From positions 1 through 64,000 of the forward strand of contig JAJXXW010000035.1 in assembly GCA_021780905.1 (NCBI GenBank): DNA of 64,000 bases, in the 5' to 3' direction. A program made the translations under genes and the position numbers. The notes beneath the pieces are model-generated. The model saw nothing but the letters and a program-made list of their open reading frames with translations, was not told where the DNA came from and ran no database searches. Of this stretch, positions 1 through 11,300 are shown piece after piece; the first letter of the stretch is position 1; the number at the start of each line of letters is the position of its first letter. The DNA comes from a bacterium. Lineage in GTDB: Bacteria > Verrucomicrobiota > Verrucomicrobiia > Limisphaerales > UBA11358.

Positions 1-83
1 TCGGCCAGATGCCGCCCACCCAGCCGCATGGCCAGTTCCGCCACCCGTTCCACTGTCGTTTTCTTCGCCGCTTGCTCGCTCAT
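1..83 (-). CDS. N-terminal fragment of an unidentified protein, cut by the window edge
   Basis: Reading the minus strand from an ATG at 83-81, the frame stays open for 27 codons to the window edge. The peptide begins MSEQAAKKTTVERVAELAM. A purine-rich ribosome-binding site (GAAGGG) lies directly before the ATG, which is the main reason to call it a gene. The visible stretch is a charged, probably helical N-terminus and is too short to assign to a family. It is transcribed away from the rest of the window. Confidence 0.45.
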   Translation of the reverse strand, partial: MSEQAAKKTTVERVAELAMRLGGRHLA

Positions 84-640
84 CCCTTCACAGACGCACC
101 GGATATTAAAAGGTTTCTACAAAGCAAGGCGCGGACTCAACGCATCCCGCCTAGAGGCACCGCGAAGCGCCTGCACAGAAGATACGCCAAGCCGCGCCCG
201 ATGGGGCGCGCTCGGTCGGATTCTGTGCGGGCTTGGAAAATTCGCGGTTTTCTAGGCAGCCCGTAGCCGAAGCTACGCAAAATGATTTTGGTTAAATTTT
301 CTGGTCGTTGAATGATTCCGTCGTGGCGAGATTAAGCCCGCGCGCGGCACATGACAATTCCCGTTTTGGATTGCCAGCCGGCGGCAAAGGTGTGAGATTG
401 CCCCAGCCGCGCCCGGAACTGACACCGTCCGCACTGTTGGCAGTGACGCCAGCAACGAAAGTCAAAGAGGACAATTCCCGGCTCCTCCGGTCGCTACGGA
501 GAAGAGTGTCTTGGGTGTGACGGCGGAGCAGGGTTCAAATCCCCGCCTCGGCGCGGCTCTTTTTTCTTACCCGTTTCGCCTGAAAACAGGCGCAGAACAG
601 GTCAAGCCGTTTGCTCAGAGCAGCGTGATAACAGCGAGAG
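84..640. other. Gene-poor stretch, no supported gene
   Basis: About 550 bases without a convincing coding frame; the short open frames on both strands have no ribosome-binding site or recognisable composition. It holds a small perfect hairpin at 261-276 (CGTAGC-CGAA-GCTACG) without a T-run, and a tRNA 3'-half-like segment near 529-553 listed separately. I see nothing else in it. Confidence 0.4.
529..565 (+). tRNA. tRNA-like 3' fragment (T-arm and acceptor strand), no complete tRNA
   Basis: The stretch CAGGG-TTCAAAT-CCCCG has the shape of a tRNA T-arm (four of five stem pairs and a canonical TTCAAAT loop). It is followed by CCTCGGC and a G that could be the acceptor 3' strand and a Ser-like discriminator. 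No matching 5' strand GCCGAGG, D-arm or credible anticodon arm occurs in the 90 bases upstream, so it is at most the 3' end of a tRNA. A T6 run at 560-565 follows, as in a terminator. It may be an old attachment-site remnant or chance. Confidence 0.25.
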
Positions 641-649
641 CCGCATCAA

Positions 650-737
650 TGTGGCAACCAAAAACAGTGACGGAACAGTGAGAATTGCGGCAGTGTGGCA
701 ACTGCTAACAGTTCAAGAACAGTCAAAAGCCAAGTCC
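650..737 (+). repeat. Two imperfect 44-bp direct repeats with 11-bp phased sub-repeats
   Basis: TGTGGCAAC occurs at 650-658 and 694-702, exactly 44 bp apart. After each copy come two AACAGT boxes: at 663 and 674 in the first unit, and at 707 and 718 in the second. All boxes are therefore separated by multiples of 11 bp and lie on one DNA face. The stretch is non-coding on both strands. Such phased boxes are typical of cooperative protein binding at operators, iterons or recombination accessory sites; which one applies here is not known. Confidence 0.7.
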
Positions 738-874
738 GCAACCGTGAAATAATTCCCGTGTCGCCCGCGCCACGTCGCCCGCTGGCGTGTCTTTGTCTCC
801 GTCCGCCATCCAATTCACCTTCCCGGCACTCCGAACGCGCCACGGCCAAGCCAGACGCAAAAACAGGCCGAAAT

Positions 875-962
875 TTTGCACAGGCTTTGCACAGATACCG
901 GCCAGACTTTTTTGTTTGCACAACTTTTGCACAAGCTCCTTTCCTTGCACAGAATTTGCACA
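875..962 (+). repeat. Six TTTGCACA boxes in three pairs, each pair 11 bp apart
   Basis: TTTGCACA (one copy CTTGCACA) starts at 875, 886, 915, 926, 944 and 955. Each of the three pairs has a centre spacing of exactly 11 bp, and the pairs are separated by 29 and 18 bp. Copies 1 and 4 read TTTTGCACA, which fits the relaxed DnaA-box form TTWTNCACA. The region is non-coding and lies just downstream, on the minus strand, of the recombinase remnant. The array may be a replication-initiator or recombinase/excisionase binding region. It is not a CRISPR, because unit and spacer lengths do not fit. Confidence 0.75.
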
Positions 963-997
963 GATTTTCTTTCCGACAAATGCCCACAGAATCGCAA

Positions 998-1535
998 TTA
1001 ACCTTGACAGCATTGTGTTTTGTCTGCTAATTTACGGGCAATGAATGGCATTAAAACACCCCCGACCGGAAACCGTGAGAATCTTGAAAGCGGCATTTCT
1101 AGTGGTTCGATTCCACTCGCTGGCACCATTCCACCAGTTTGACTGGTTTCGACACGTAGTGACCACGGTTTGACGCAAGAACCACGGGCTAATTTGCAGT
1201 CGAGGACAAGGTTCGAGCCAAAGCTCCTTGGGCAAGAACCCGCTTCTCTTGAAGAGAACCCTTAATCGCGATTTCACCCGCGTTTCTCGCGGTTAAAATC
1301 CATTTTTGGAACGATTCGAGCCAATCGGCTCGGCCTTTCAAAAGTGCGCTGCTTTGCTCTTCCAAAGATTTCTTCTGGCTCATTCCTTTGGCCTTCTCCG
1401 CGACATACGTTTCGCGGTCAATCACCCCGTCCAAAAAAGAGTCCAGAACGGCCTGCCGCGTGGTTGGTTGGCAATCCAGCAGCCGATTTCCGCCATCGGC
1501 GCAGATTCAGCAGATCTCATGTCAACCGCGCCGCC
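998..1535 (-). pseudogene. C-terminal remnant of a large serine recombinase, frameshifted
   Basis: On the minus strand the frame from an ATG at 1520 reads ...TTRQAVLDSFLDGVIDRET and then a Lys/Glu-rich helical stretch (SQKKSLEEQ). This is like the coiled-coil and C-terminal region of large serine site-specific recombinases. Near 1225 the homology jumps to another frame, which reads SFGSNLVLDCKLARGS...KPWSL, again typical of this family, and ends with the TAA at 998. About one base has been gained or two lost at the junction. The catalytic domain is absent, since an in-frame stop lies at 1536-1538. The last part of the shifted frame runs antisense through the tRNA-like 3' end at 1101-1128. This is seen when such elements insert at tRNA ends. 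The gene is dead; family assignment rests on recalled motifs. Confidence 0.65.
1101..1128 (+). tRNA. tRNA 3' end (T-arm, acceptor strand, CCA) without a 5' half
   Basis: AGTGG-TTCGATT-CCACT forms a perfect five-pair T-arm with a canonical loop. It is followed by the seven-base acceptor strand CGCTGGC, discriminator A and an encoded CCA. The partner acceptor strand GCCAGCG is not found upstream, and no anticodon arm can be folded in the preceding 60 bases. This is therefore a detached tRNA 3' end, the usual form of an attachment-site half left by an integrative element. A 13-bp palindrome (CCAGT-TTG-ACTGG) follows at 1133-1145. Confidence 0.5.
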
Positions 1536-1602
1536 TCAAATGCCCGGGGGATGACTTGGCGTTGCGTCGCGGGTGGATTTGCGGAACAATTCCCGCGCCC
1601 GC

Positions 1603-2883
1603 ATGACGCGCAAATCCCAAACCCAAAATTCTGCCACCCACGCGATGATCCTTGGGGTCGGCTCGTTCGCGCACAGCCTCGGCGGCGCGCTGGCGGATGC
1701 GGGCGCGGACGTCTCCACCTATCTGACGCGGAATTACGGCCATTATGCGCCGACGCTGGTGGGCAAAACGTTTTCGCGCGACGCGTTTCCGAGTCCGGTG
1801 CCGCTGTTGCGTGAAAACCAAATTGACGTCGTCATCCCCCAGTCCATTGACTGGGCGTTGCAGCCGTGGGCGGAAGACTTGGTCAACTCCGGCGTCGGCA
1901 TTTTCAGTCCCACCGGCGAGGCGATGCGGATTGAGCGCGAACGTGATTGTGCGCGCACGCTGTGTGCGAAGTTCAAAATTCCCTTTCCGAAAGCCTTCGT
2001 TGCCGCCAACCGGATCGAAGCGGAAAAGATTCTCGCACAACATCCCCAGCCGTTCGTCATCAAGAATCCGCTCTGCTCGCCGACCAGTCCGATTCACACG
2101 GTCATGTGCGAAACCGTCGCGGACACGCGGGCGTGGCTGCGGCAGGTGAATTATGCCGAGGGCGTTTTCCTCCAGGAATATCTCGGCCGCGCCGAGGCCG
2201 GCCACATCGCGTTGGTCAGCGGTGGCGAAATCCATTCGCTCGTCACGAACCAGGAATACAAATATGCGCACAATGGAAATCTCGGCATCATCGCCGGCGC
2301 GCCGCTCGGCGGACTCGTGGAACGCGACGAGCATGACAAATACGGTCTGGCGCGCGAACTGATTCATCCACTAAAACCGTGGCTGAAAAAGGTGAATTAC
2401 CATGGGCCGCTGCAAGTCACCGCCATCCGGCGCGGCGGCCGTTGGCACGTCATCGAATACAACATCCGCATCGGTGTCACCTCCGGCCCGATGATTTTGC
2501 GGATGCTGAAAAATCCGGTGGCAGTGGTTTTGGCGGCGGCGCGGAATGAGAAGTTGAAACTGGAGTTCAACGACAAGCTGAACTTCGGCTGCTCGCTGAC
2601 GCTGGCGGGCTACGGTTATCCCTTCACGCAGGTGCGCGGGCCGCAGTTGCCGTTGGAAGTGGACGGAAAATTTGACTGCGATGTGTGGTGGAATGAAGTT
2701 GCGCGTGGCGCGGATGGCAATTTGATTGCGACCGGTCAGCGCATCGCAGACGTGGTTGCGCTCGCGCCGACGCTGAAGACGGCGATGAGCAAAGCTTACA
2801 CGAACATCCGCAAGATCCGCGTCGTCGGCAGTTATTTCCGCACGGATGTCGGCCAAAGCTTGTGGCCGCCGGGAACGGTTTAG
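1603..2883 (+). CDS. PurD-like ATP-grasp protein (phosphoribosylamine-glycine ligase family)
   Basis: The 426-residue protein has a Rossmann-like N-terminus (MILGVGSFAHSLGGALADAG), a central ATP-grasp fold (FVIKNPLCSPTSPIHT, then the Glu-rich core YAEGVFLQEYLGRAEAGH) and a C-terminal part. The C-terminal part, with GYGYPF, LIATGQRIADVVAL and AYTNIRKIRVVGSYFRTDVG, follows the C-domain of PurD. PurD joins glycine to phosphoribosylamine in purine synthesis. The N-terminus departs from the usual GREHA-type motif, so the substrate may differ. The start is uncertain: ATG at 1603 is used, ATG 1645 is possible, and neither has a clear ribosome-binding site. The alanine racemase gene follows 121 bases later on the same strand. 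Confidence 0.7.
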   Translation: MTRKSQTQNSATHAMILGVGSFAHSLGGALADAGADVSTYLTRNYGHYAPTLVGKTFSRDAFPSPVPLLRENQIDVVIPQSIDWALQPWAEDLVNSGVGIFSPTGEAMRIERERDCARTLCAKFKIPFPKAFVAANRIEAEKILAQHPQPFVIKNPLCSPTSPIHTVMCETVADTRAWLRQVNYAEGVFLQEYLGRAEAGHIALVSGGEIHSLVTNQEYKYAHNGNLGIIAGAPLGGLVERDEHDKYGLARELIHPLKPWLKKVNYHGPLQVTAIRRGGRWHVIEYNIRIGVTSGPMILRMLKNPVAVVLAAARNEKLKLEFNDKLNFGCSLTLAGYGYPFTQVRGPQLPLEVDGKFDCDVWWNEVARGADGNLIATGQRIADVVALAPTLKTAMSKAYTNIRKIRVVGSYFRTDVGQSLWPPGTV

Positions 2884-3004
2884 ACGAATCAGGAAAGCAG
2901 GAAGGCTGGAAAAATCCATTCCTTGTTTCCTGCTTTCTTTATTAAAGTTGTTCCGATTTTTTCGTGCGTTTCGTGTATTTCGCGGTAAAGCTTTTAGCCG
3001 TTGG

Positions 3005-4147
3005 ATGAATCTTAATTCCGAAAATTTTCCGCAGCGGCCGGCGTGGACCGAGATTGACCTCGGCAAGTTGCGCCGCAATTTGCAACTCGTCCGCCGCGAC
3101 CTGCCGCGCACGGTGAAACTGCTCGCCGTCGTCAAGGACGAAGCCTACGGCCATGGCGCACTGGACGTGGCGCGCGTGGCGGTCGAGGAAGGCGCGTGGG
3201 GCTTCGGCTTGAGCACGCTGGAAGAAGCAATGCACCTGCGCGAAGGCGGCATCACCGCGCCGTTGCTGCTCCTCGGCGAACGGCAGGCGGCCGAACTCGA
3301 ATGGTGCGTGGCACATGACCTGACAGTTTGCGTGAACGAACCGCACACCGTCCGCAAGCTCGCGAAAATCGCGGCTGATTTTGGCAAGCGCGTGCCGGTG
3401 CATCTTAAAATCCATACCGGCATGAGCCGTTACGGTGTGCGCTGGGACGAGGCGCGGCCGCTCATCGAAGCCATTGTTGCCGAGAAATCGTTGTCGATCG
3501 AAGGCGTGATGACGCATTTCGCGCAGTCGGATGAAACGGATAAAACCTTTTCCAATCTTCAGTTTTCGCGCTTTCAGGAAATTCTTACCGCGTTGGAACA
3601 CAAGAAAGTTTCCGTCAAGCTGCGTCACGCCTGCAACAGTGGCGGGTTTCTGGATTTGCCGCAGGCGCATCTGGACATGGTGCGGGTGGGCATTTTGCAC
3701 TACGGCGTTTTTCCCTCGCAAGTTTGCCGTCGGATTTCCGGCATCGAGCCGGTGATGTCGGTGAAAGCGAAAATCGCCGCGATCCAGAAATTAAAACCCG
3801 GCGAAGTTGTCGGCTACGGCATGCGCTACACGGCGCGGACGGAACGGCGCATCGCGATTCTGCCCATCGGCTACGGCGACGGCTTTCCGCGCGTCCGCAA
3901 TGAAGGCTGCGCGCTCATCCACGGGCACCGCGCGCCCATCGTCGGCGGCATCGCGATGGACGCCTTGATGGTGGACATCACGGACATTCCGCAGGCGCAA
4001 ATGTGGGACGAAGCCGTGCTGATGGGCCGGCAGGGCGGCGATGAAATCACCGTGCGCGACATCGCCAAGCTGAAAAATTCCGTGACCTACGACGTGCTGA
4101 CGAACTGGCGGCTGCGACTGCGGCGCAAACCGGTGAACGGCGGATGA
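3005..4147 (+). CDS. alr: Alanine racemase
   Basis: The 380-residue protein is a PLP-dependent, fold-type III racemase that makes D-alanine for peptidoglycan. The PLP lysine lies in AVVKDEAYGHG (Lys44; the family usually has AVVKADAYGHG). The second catalytic residue is the tyrosine in VGYGMRYTART (about Tyr275), and PIGYGDGFPR matches the PIGYADGYPR motif. The length is normal for the family. The open frame extends upstream into the preceding gene, but ATG 3005 gives the conserved start just before PAWTEIDLGKLRRNL. It probably forms a two-gene unit with the PurD-like gene. Confidence 0.93.
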   Translation: MNLNSENFPQRPAWTEIDLGKLRRNLQLVRRDLPRTVKLLAVVKDEAYGHGALDVARVAVEEGAWGFGLSTLEEAMHLREGGITAPLLLLGERQAAELEWCVAHDLTVCVNEPHTVRKLAKIAADFGKRVPVHLKIHTGMSRYGVRWDEARPLIEAIVAEKSLSIEGVMTHFAQSDETDKTFSNLQFSRFQEILTALEHKKVSVKLRHACNSGGFLDLPQAHLDMVRVGILHYGVFPSQVCRRISGIEPVMSVKAKIAAIQKLKPGEVVGYGMRYTARTERRIAILPIGYGDGFPRVRNEGCALIHGHRAPIVGGIAMDALMVDITDIPQAQMWDEAVLMGRQGGDEITVRDIAKLKNSVTYDVLTNWRLRLRRKPVNGG

Positions 4148-8243: not shown

Positions 8244-8262
8244 TTGTCACCCAAATGTAACC
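8244..8262 (+). promoter_or_regulatory. Operator-like direct repeat, copy 2 (upstream of tpsA)
   Basis: TTGTCACC-CAA-ATGTAACC, half-sites 11 bp apart, starting two bases after the tpsB stop codon. It lies 9 bp upstream of a possible -35 element, the same spacing as at copy 4. Confidence 0.65.
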
Positions 8263-8271
8263 TGCCAATGA

Positions 8272-8299
8272 TTTACCGTTTTTCCCAAGGTGCTAGGCT
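8272..8299 (+). promoter_or_regulatory. Possible tpsA promoter
   Basis: TTTACC (8272-8277), a 16-bp spacer and TAGGCT (8294-8299) form a weak -35/-10 pair placed 9 bp after the direct repeat and about 22 bp before the ATG at 8322. Poor boxes would suit an activator-dependent promoter. Confidence 0.35.
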
Positions 8300-8321
8300 T
8301 CGTGGAAACAGAATTGATGCC

Positions 8322-11300
8322 ATGATGAACGTGTCAACCCGGTGGAGCCGTCTGGTCAGGTGCCTGCTGGTGCCGTGGGCCGTTTGCGGTCTGGGTCCCG
8401 ACCAAGGCCACGCCAATCCCACGGGCGGCGTCGTGAGTCAGGGTTCGGCTTCCATCAGCGGCATCGGCTCGCCATCGGTGACCATCAATCAGACTTCCGC
8501 CAATGCCTTCATCAACTGGAACAGTTTCAACCTCGGCGCGGGCGAGACCACGACGTTCAACCAGCCCTCGTCTTCGTCGGTGACGTGGAACTACATCAGC
8601 GATCCCAACGCCTCGATCCTGAACGGGAATCTCAACGCCAACGGGTATGTGATCCTGCAAAACCCGAACGGGTTTAACGTGGGCGGCGCGGCCGTCATCA
8701 ACACCCACGGTCTGGTGATGACCACCGCCTCCACGCCCAATCTGGACCTGTCCGGCGGCGGCTCCTGGGCGTTCACCGCGCCGCCGCCCACGGCCAAAAT
8801 CATCAACTATGGACAGATCAACATCGCCGGCGGCGGTTCGGCCTATCTGATTGCCAGCGACATTGAAAACCACGGCACGATCTCGGCGCCAAACGGGAAA
8901 ATCGGGCTTTATGCCGGACAAACAGTTTTGGTCTCCTTGAGCCCCGATGGCCGCGGGTTGAGCGCCCAAGTGACGCTGCCCGCAGGCTCGGTCAACAACA
9001 GCGGCCAGTTGATCGCCGACGCCGGCAGCATTGCCGCCCAGGCCCAGTTCGTGAATCAAAACGGCCTCGTGCAGGCCAACTCGGTCCAGAACGTCAATGG
9101 GACCATTGAACTGGTCGCCAGCGGCAACCTGACGCTGGGTGCCAGTTCCCAAATCAGCGCCAACGGCGACGCGACGGCTGCCGGCAAGAGTCCCGGCGGG
9201 TTTGTGGTATTGAACGCGGGCAACAACACGTTTGCCGACAACACCGGTTCCAGCATTTCGGTTGCGGGGGCAGGCGGCGGCCAAAATGGCGTGGTGGAAA
9301 TCATGGGCAGCGGTGTCACCGCCGGCGGGCTGAAATCCACTTACGGCAATCCGTATGCGCTCTTGATTAATCCCTATGACCTGACCCTTTCATCCGGGGC
9401 CATCACGGCCAGCGCCAGCCCGACAGTCAACCTCAGTGCCCTCGCCAACTATGCGCAGATTGATTTGCAGGCGCTCGACAATATTTCTTTGGGTTCGGCT
9501 TGGACTTTGGCCGCCGCCAGTTCGCCGTCGGTCTTGAATTTAAGCGCCGGCAATAACATCAACTTCAACAACTCGCTCACCGCTGGCAACAACTGGAGCG
9601 TGAATCTGGCTGCCGGCACGCTTTATACGGGAATCGTCCAGCCCGCATCCGGCAAGGATGGTGTTTATCTGAACGGCAGCTCTTATCTGCAATCGCTGAA
9701 CGGCGACCTCAACCTTTGGGCCGCCAACGAAGTGGTGGTCGGCAGCGGGGCCATCCGGACCATCGGCGGCGGCAACATTGCCGTGACGGCGGAGTATGGC
9801 AACGTCAATTCCGGCTCCAGCTCTGCCGGGTATAATTATTATGCGCTGGGAACCGGAACCGCGGCCAAACCCTACTATACTCCCTTCCAGCTTAACGGCT
9901 CCGGAACGGCCCAGACGGTCAACTTCAACCAGTCGAATCTGGGCGGCATCAGCACGGCCGCCGGCGGGAACGTGACCATCAATGCCGGCAACAATGTGAT
10001 CAGTTTCCCCACCACCACGGTGGCGGCGGGTGATCCGGGCACGGGGGCGTTCGGGCCGGAAGCGGGGAATGTGACCATCAATGCCGGCGGAAATGTTTAC
10101 GGGCATTTTGTGGAGGCCAACGGCATCGGCACCCTCAACGCCGGCCAGAACATCGGCACGTTGCAGAACAATGTGGCCTTGAGCCTCGTCCAAGGCAGTT
10201 GGGATTTGAATGCGGGCTGGAACCCCGTCACCCAGACGGTTCGGAGCGGGGCGGGCAATATTTATTTGCAGGAGGTGCGGAATCCCAACGGCGTTTTCAA
10301 TAACACCACCGTGGGTCTCAGCCACAAGCCCTCCGCCGGCATCCATCTGTTTAACTACGATCCACAGGCTTCGGTCACGCTGACGGCGGGCAATGCAGTT
10401 AATCTGACGGGTTATGACCTGCCAAGACCCAATGGGGCCGTCCCCATGTTGCTGCCGCCGACGCTGGCCATCAATGCCGGGCCGGGTGGCGTCATTTTGG
10501 ATACACCCAGCGCGATGGACGCCAATGGCAACAGCGTTGCCTTGTCCAGCTATGACATCACCTTGTTTTCCTCCGCCTATGGGAATCTGCAAATCACCAC
10601 CGCCGGCGGCGGCGGTTTGAGCAGCGGGAACGCCGACGGCAGCGTCACCACGCTGCTGATGTCCGACAGCAGCCAGACGCAGTGGTATATCGCCAATTCG
10701 GGGGCGCAGCCATTCAGTGAGGCGGACAACGCCAGCGTGCCGGCGGAGTTGAACAATTATCAGCCGGTGATGCTGGACGTATCCGGAAACATGAACAATC
10801 TCGTTTTGCAGGTTTCCAAGCTGGCCCAGATCACGGTGGGCGGCGACCTGACCGGCTGCTCTTTCTTCGGGCAGAATTTGCACGCCGGCGACATCACCTC
10901 CATCACGGTCGGCGGCCGGATTTACAACGCCGGTTCGTTCAATCAGGTCACTTTGGGCCAGAGTCTCCCCAGTGCCAGCGTGCCCTTGGCGGATCTCCCG
11001 CCCGGCATGGCTGACAACTGGACCACTATTTTTCAACTGGCGGTTAATCCGGCCTTGCTGCCCTCCCAATCGCTCCTGGCCGTTACGCCGTCGCAATTGG
11101 CCTCCTATCTGGTGAACGCCGCTGCATTTCCGGGTCTTAATCTCGGTCAAAGTCTGGCATACGATTCCAATACGAAGACGCTCACCGCGATCGGTCCCTT
11201 GTCATCGGGACTCGTGGGCGTTTTGGAGTCGCCAGCGCTGACGGTGGTGCGTTATGGTCCCAATGGCTATCCCTTGCTGGATGCCAATGGCCACTTTGTG

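Follow-up and report, generated by a model that had tools for sequence, protein, structure and literature searches.

The locus and its paired boxes

Two arrays of short boxes, each with an 11-bp phasing, lie near the start of the window (the entire 64,000-nucleotide stretch of DNA that was analysed), a little upstream of the 3′ end of a tRNA sequence and of what is left of a recombinase gene (Table 1). Both arrays and their phasing had been pointed out in a first-pass annotation, and both are real: they were recovered by direct search and were unmatched in 300 dinucleotide shuffles of window positions 1–1560, not one of which gave four AACAG per 80 bp, or even three TTGCACA per 95 bp. The first array has TGTGGCAAC at 650 and 694 and AACAGT at 663, 674, 707 and 718, with spacings between the latter of 11, 33 and 11. 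The second, which spans 875–962, had been described as six boxes; its organization into three pairs is as reported (11 bp within a pair, 40 and 29 bp from one pair to the next), five of the boxes being TTTGCACA and the odd copy, at 944, CTTGCACA. The motif TTGCACA is found at 876, 887, 916, 927, 945 and 956.

Table 1. Features of the window at and around the paired boxes (positions are those of the window).
Feature	Positions	Strand	Remarks
Two 44-bp units TGTGGCAAC-AACAGT-AACAGT	650..723	+	Seen at this locus alone
Conserved right-end block	729..1081	+	90% identity to C15, another contig of this genome; present in 8 other same-genus genomes
Predicted arm-site pair 1, P arm	875..893	+	TTTGCACA-GGC-TTTGCACA; most complete elements have a counterpart at about -215 relative to the core
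Predicted arm-site pair 2, P arm	915..933	+	TTTGCACA-ACT-TTTGCACA; counterpart at about -176 in most complete elements, inverted in G009
Predicted arm-site pair 3, P arm	944..962	+	CTTGCACA-GAA-TTTGCACA; counterpart at about -147 in most complete elements
Left half of inverted repeat, TGCCCACAGA	981..990	+	Other half, TTTACGGGCA, at 1031-1040; imperfect; flanks the predicted promoter
Predicted attP promoter	1004..1033	+	TTGACA at 1004-1009; similar in right ends with the same box, weaker in diverged ones
Putative start of split integrase ORF, N-terminal leader	1041..1142	+	Translation MNGIKTPPTGNRENLESGISSGSIPLAGTIPPV, then a stop; the ORF enters the tRNA core
Putative attR core, 3′ end of tRNA-Met(CAT) (T arm, acceptor, CCA)	1101..1130	+	The intact tRNA-Met of G034 contains the same sequence
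Large serine recombinase, C-terminal remnant	1189..1434	-	89% DNA identity to contig C56, which has the intact 497-aa enzyme

The two arrays fare differently when relatives are searched for the same boxes, a check that the annotation itself had proposed. The TTTGCACA array passes it, as described below. The 650–723 array fails it: its units have no match with two mismatches or fewer in the 48 other genomes of the genus, nor in the rest of the same genome. In the copy of the block on contig C15 a short ORF fills the interval that this array occupies in the window, and the tail of that ORF remains at window position 729. The 650–723 array may be a binding array private to the element of the window or, alternatively, the product of a local duplication.

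The recombinase remnant beside the boxes, with which they had initially been associated, is not the enzyme that uses them; it is a serine recombinase that comes from a different element. The flank at 1104–1448 is the remnant of a serine-recombinase element like that on C56 (L080), where the large serine recombinase gene occupies 2376–3869 and its C-terminus is apparently encoded by the antisense strand of the 3′ end of a tRNA-Leu.

There are also features of some interest upstream of both arrays. At 520–550 a T-arm-like stretch, CAGGGTTCAAATCCCCGCCTC, ends a block shared with C15 and is followed by a run of T; it received neither a tRNA nor an Rfam call. Further upstream, positions 121–312 (in a conserved block that reaches to 557) hold a conserved non-coding element of about 185 nt, with several copies in many genomes of the genus. 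Window 127–557 is matched in 33 of 49 same-genus genomes, and some of these copies lie within tRNA-integrating elements. The homologues of 121–312 (n = 25) have the structure of a single long stem, with compensatory changes in 22 of its 41 pairs, and a search of Rfam 15 gave no match at E≤10. The element is thus a candidate for a new structured RNA or a hairpin DNA element. At six of the 25 loci (L089, L093 and L095 among them) a protein cluster that by eye resembles DNA methyltransferases lies on one side of the homologue; these genes mostly start tens of bases from the structured element and run in the opposite direction.

Complete elements and the geometry of their probable arm sites

The window forms the start of contig C54 in a 3.9-Mb draft genome whose named relatives place it in Verrucomicrobia subdivision 3 (Limisphaerales). 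A search of this genome for the pattern of TTTGCACA pairs, tolerating up to two mismatches, found it in the window, on contig C15 (three pairs), on contig C3 (one pair) and in one poor match with two mismatches. The three pairs on C15 are in the block that it shares with the window; from the end of this block it is about 142 bp to a tRNA-Gln 3′ fragment. The single pair on C3 lies between an intact tRNA-Gln and a 419-codon gene for a tyrosine recombinase. These two contigs, unjoined in the assembly, have a 36-bp core in common and appear, from their sequences, to carry the opposite ends of a single element. The pilT gene on the C15 side was tried as a guide to the empty site of this element and rejected, being without an adjoining tRNA-Gln in 29 relatives. 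Right behind the integrase on C3 (L010) is a small toxin-like gene (8260–8586; phrog_3445 toxin), with a possible antitoxin ORF after it.

Relatives of the C3 recombinase are present in 59 of 97 related genomes (E≤1e-20) and, under a limit stricter than that, in 62 of the 293 Limisphaerales genomes; in 287 other genomes sampled across the phylum there was no match at E≤1e-50. The relatives match both PF00589 (Phage_integrase) and phrog_1 (integrase). Ten complete elements, from 6.2 to 13.1 kb in length, could be recognized, each bounded by an intact tRNA on the integrase side and by a directly repeated copy of the tRNA 3′ end on the other. They are G018 (Leu), G009 (Leu), G030 (Gln), G041a (Gln), G041b (Arg), L102 (Leu), L105 (Asn), L106 (Gln), L109 (Leu) and L112 (Leu). 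One element encodes an excisionase-like HTH_17 protein and a Prim-Pol protein.

The box pairs of these elements follow a common plan. At the right end most elements have two or three pairs, close to the distances from the core given in Table 1; the exceptions, besides the inverted middle pair of G009, are L106, with one clear pair, and L105 and L109, which are irregular. All ten complete elements also have a left-end pair next to the integrase, some 34 bp past the core (at about +34 in most). When the 38 integrated copies that have a detectable tRNA are considered, 36 of them have a direct pair of 7-mers, differing by no more than one mismatch, at a spacing of 11 bp, as against one to six at spacings of 8–10 and 12–14 bp, and since these sequences are related rather than independent such counts overstate the significance. 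The box itself differs between elements (TTTGCACA, CCGCACA, CGACACA, TGACACA or CCAAACA), yet the 11-bp spacing persists. Moreover, the elements with CCGCACA, CGACACA, CCAAACA or TGACACA have the identical box at both ends. In the diverged elements the tRNA repeat served to find the right ends, at a stage when the left-end boxes were already known; the matching boxes were predicted beforehand and then observed. Because the box changes jointly at both ends, beside the integrase, we take the boxes to be arm-type sites and not DnaA boxes, for which no such drift would be expected. Putative arm-type sites are repeated on both arms and match each other, as would be expected of a tRNA element.

In the first-pass annotation an initiator-binding site, perhaps in a replication region, had also been considered; the array would then be a replication origin, with DnaA boxes or iterons as the initiator's targets. 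Copies 1 and 4 (TTTTGCACA) do literally fit the relaxed DnaA form TTWTNCACA, and the Prim-Pol protein encoded by one member of the family could be thought to point the same way. However, this form is not kept: the homologous elements hold CCGCACA, CGACACA or CCAAACA in its place, changed at both ends together and tracking the other arm of the integrase, and the sites are found at fixed distances from the tRNA core. Nor did the GC-skew check for an origin, which was made within the window, give a turning point at the site. We judge the fit to the DnaA form to be a coincidence and an origin at this position to be highly improbable.

The annotation had also allowed for the binding site of a recombination complex, perhaps in the excision region of a former element, and it is this suggestion that the comparison with relatives upholds, the 875–962 array corresponding to the arm-site cluster of the attR of a tRNA element. 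Very probably, window 860–1130 represents attR of a small integrative element that has inserted into the 3′ end of a tRNA-Met(CAT) gene, with the TTTGCACA pairs as predicted arm-type sites for the N-terminal domain of a lambda-type tyrosine integrase; this degree of confidence applies jointly to the attR end, the arm sites, the integrase ORF that spans attP and the deduced expression switch. The tRNA-Met of G034 that has the identical core stretch adjoins a related integrase, and 1101–1130 is the sole copy in the assembly of the window. What the assembly holds of this element is the attR end, its left end and integrase being absent. A tRNA or tmRNA gene was sought in the window with ARAGORN and Rfam; neither called one, and there is only the 3′ fragment.

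An integrase reading frame that appears to run through attP

It had been supposed that the boxes lie in a non-coding stretch. For 875–962 this is correct, but an integrase-linked ORF begins at 1041, and in the relatives the pair at the left end is within coding sequence. When the ends of the ten complete elements are joined to give attP, all ten produce one open frame that begins at an ATG in the right end, passes through the tRNA core and the left pair and continues into the integrase; G034, joined from two contigs, also gives such an in-frame attP ORF. In these joined ends, then, attP lies inside the integrase ORF, and integration appears to remove the promoter of the integrase together with its first codons. 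The attP sequences are those obtained by joining ends: a pattern scan gave no natural attP or excised circle, a search of IMG/VR for a natural attP returned two close integrases (one integrated beside a tRNA-Asn, the other cut off 57 bases upstream), and phage records yielded only distant integrases, from Akkermansia phages.

The integrated copies tell a similar story. Of 38 copies, 36 have no stop in the integrase frame from inside the tRNA to an internal start codon, from which a shorter form of the integrase can be read (the other two frames are open in 1 and 21 of 38). The two exceptions are C3 of the genome of the window and L178; C15 and C3 join in frame, but there is one TAA just past the core. 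In G018 the tRNA is read in another frame than in the other elements, and the two ends of G018 agree in this. As for the start of the short form, the motif [KRT][FWY]P is preceded by GTG or ATG in all 28 cases of an initial set. The 20 valines at this position are all encoded by GTG, though GTG accounts for 41% of the valine codons in these genes. In a larger set there is a GTG or ATG in 44 of 45, the exception possibly reflecting a misplaced start. Many of the short-form starts have no obvious Shine-Dalgarno sequence. According to structural modelling, the integrase of the relatives has arm-binding, core-binding and catalytic domains; the model of the short form (mean pLDDT 72.6) opens directly with the beta-strands and helix typical of an arm-binding domain (residues 6–62), and its best PDB match in Foldseek is lambda Int (1z1b).

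At the right end, the predicted promoter of the window has two candidate -10 sequences, GCTAAT at 1026–1031 (16-bp spacer) and TAATTT at 1028–1033 (18-bp spacer), which sit 7–9 nt before the ATG at 1041; the mRNA from this promoter is possibly leaderless. In several diverged elements the promoter matches are poor. The inverted repeat around the promoter is a possible operator, and in G041a its two halves, TGCTCATAGA and TCTATGAGCA, co-vary and match perfectly. With the paired boxes upstream of the predicted promoter, and this imperfect repeat flanking it too, one could imagine that the pairs serve chiefly to regulate the attP promoter, through Int or a repressor, and only secondarily as arm sites. 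There is a precedent in KplE1, where the attL sites overlap the int promoter and lead to autorepression by Int (PMC2951348). Nevertheless, the integrase ORF contains one of the pairs, on the opposite side of the core, and the sites are laid out as P and P′ arms; moreover, operator and arm roles are compatible. A chiefly regulatory array therefore seems to us rather improbable.

With the pairs read as arm sites, the arrangement suggests a simple working scheme. In the excised circle the right-end promoter would drive the long integrase, whose mRNA may be leaderless. Int would bridge the core and the arm pairs (three on the P arm and one on the P′ arm) and insert the circle into the tRNA, an event that would strand the promoter and the leader at the far end of the element. 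The integrated form would retain a complete short integrase that could be started only at the conserved GTG or ATG before the arm-binding domain, and any transcription of it would come from another promoter, perhaps that of the tRNA. Such a short integrase, along with the excisionase-like HTH_17 protein, could still excise the element. The output of integrase would thereby depend on whether the element is integrated or excised.

Two other views of the split gene deserve consideration. The first is that the integrase is truly suicidal, no active Int being made after integration and excision requiring help in trans, as proposed for the archaeal SSV-type enzymes. The loss of promoter and start on integration is in keeping with this, as are the many short-form starts without an obvious Shine-Dalgarno sequence; but the conservation of the short-form GTG or ATG, the complete arm-binding fold that the model gives to the short form and the excisionase-like gene carried by one element all argue in the other direction, and we find this view unlikely. 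The second is that the long ORF does not act as a functional fusion: Int would always be made from the GTG or ATG, and the leader would do no more than let translation into int. The leader is only weakly conserved in its amino acids, with its middle dictated by the tRNA that is used, and a test of codon positions in the leader gave no significant excess of variation at the third position (223 of 2000 shuffles). Against this stands the frame itself: all ten joins preserve it, as do 36 of 38 left ends, with tRNAs of several classes and also in G018. A kept frame separates chance from selection, but not a function of the peptide from translational coupling. The second view, while on balance doubtful, is somewhat more plausible than the first.

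As a generalization, which we would give about an even chance of being correct, there would be an order-wide bacterial family in which attP lies in the 5′ part of the integrase gene, in which translation in the circle takes in the tRNA T arm and the P′ sites, and in which integration switches the product from a long form, expressed from an attP promoter and possibly from a leaderless mRNA, to a short GTG/ATG form, so that both the form and the amount of integrase report the integration state. The Limisphaerales, as a whole order, appear to carry tRNA-inserting elements with an integrase gene that starts beyond attP, and the arrangement holds over several tRNA targets, even though the coding region includes the tRNA sequence. 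Provided that expression follows the DNA, insertion by itself would lower the activity of the integrase gene or change its product, which would be a simple way to fix integration. From a practical point of view, the 11-bp box pairs and the frame running into the tRNA should together be an aid in finding the ends of such elements.

Comparison with known integration systems

Our literature searches returned no description of this Limisphaerales element family, which is weak evidence given that most subscription journals were uncovered, and in the searchable literature we did not find a bacterial case of 5′-end loss with a conserved second start. There are, however, several well-described systems with which parts of the arrangement can be compared. 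The most obvious is lambda, which resembles these elements in its arm sites flanking the core, in the arm-binding, core-binding and catalytic domains (here predicted) of its Int and in having an excisionase gene, here represented by an excisionase-like one. Unlike those of lambda, the arm sites here come in 11-bp pairs, one of them within the integrase coding sequence, and attP interrupts int.

In ICEclc, as is predicted for our elements, a promoter at the far end drives the integrase gene only in the circle; a coding sequence through attP is not reported for ICEclc, as far as we have seen. Pcirc is the promoter listed for its intB13 gene (PMC2892462). In prophages of the KplE1/HK620 type the promoter, arm sites and tRNA core are likewise interleaved at the integrase end (PMC2951348), but their promoter stays with int after integration, whereas here the predicted promoter is at the other end of the element.

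The Myxococcus phages Mx8 and Mx9 provide a bacterial parallel for an attP inside the int coding sequence, and with them too integration alters the protein (PMC6070905; PMC4383910). Indeed, the authors of Islander allowed for integrases that extend across attP (PMC4383910). The difference is that in Mx8 int acquires a new 3′ end, while in the elements described here it would be the promoter, the start codon and the N-terminus that are lost, leaving a short form with a conserved start of its own.

Finally, the archaeal suicidal integrases (SSV1/pTN3/pT26-2) also have attP within the gene, and a review calls them exclusive to archaea (PMC8371274). As in those systems, integration would detach an N-terminal part of the protein. 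The Pfam match of the Limisphaerales integrases is to PF00589 only and not to Phage_integr_3 (PF16795), which places them outside the SSV family. They differ from the archaeal enzymes in being bacterial, in losing the leader alone, with the modelled fold left whole, and in having a conserved internal start from which the short form could be made.
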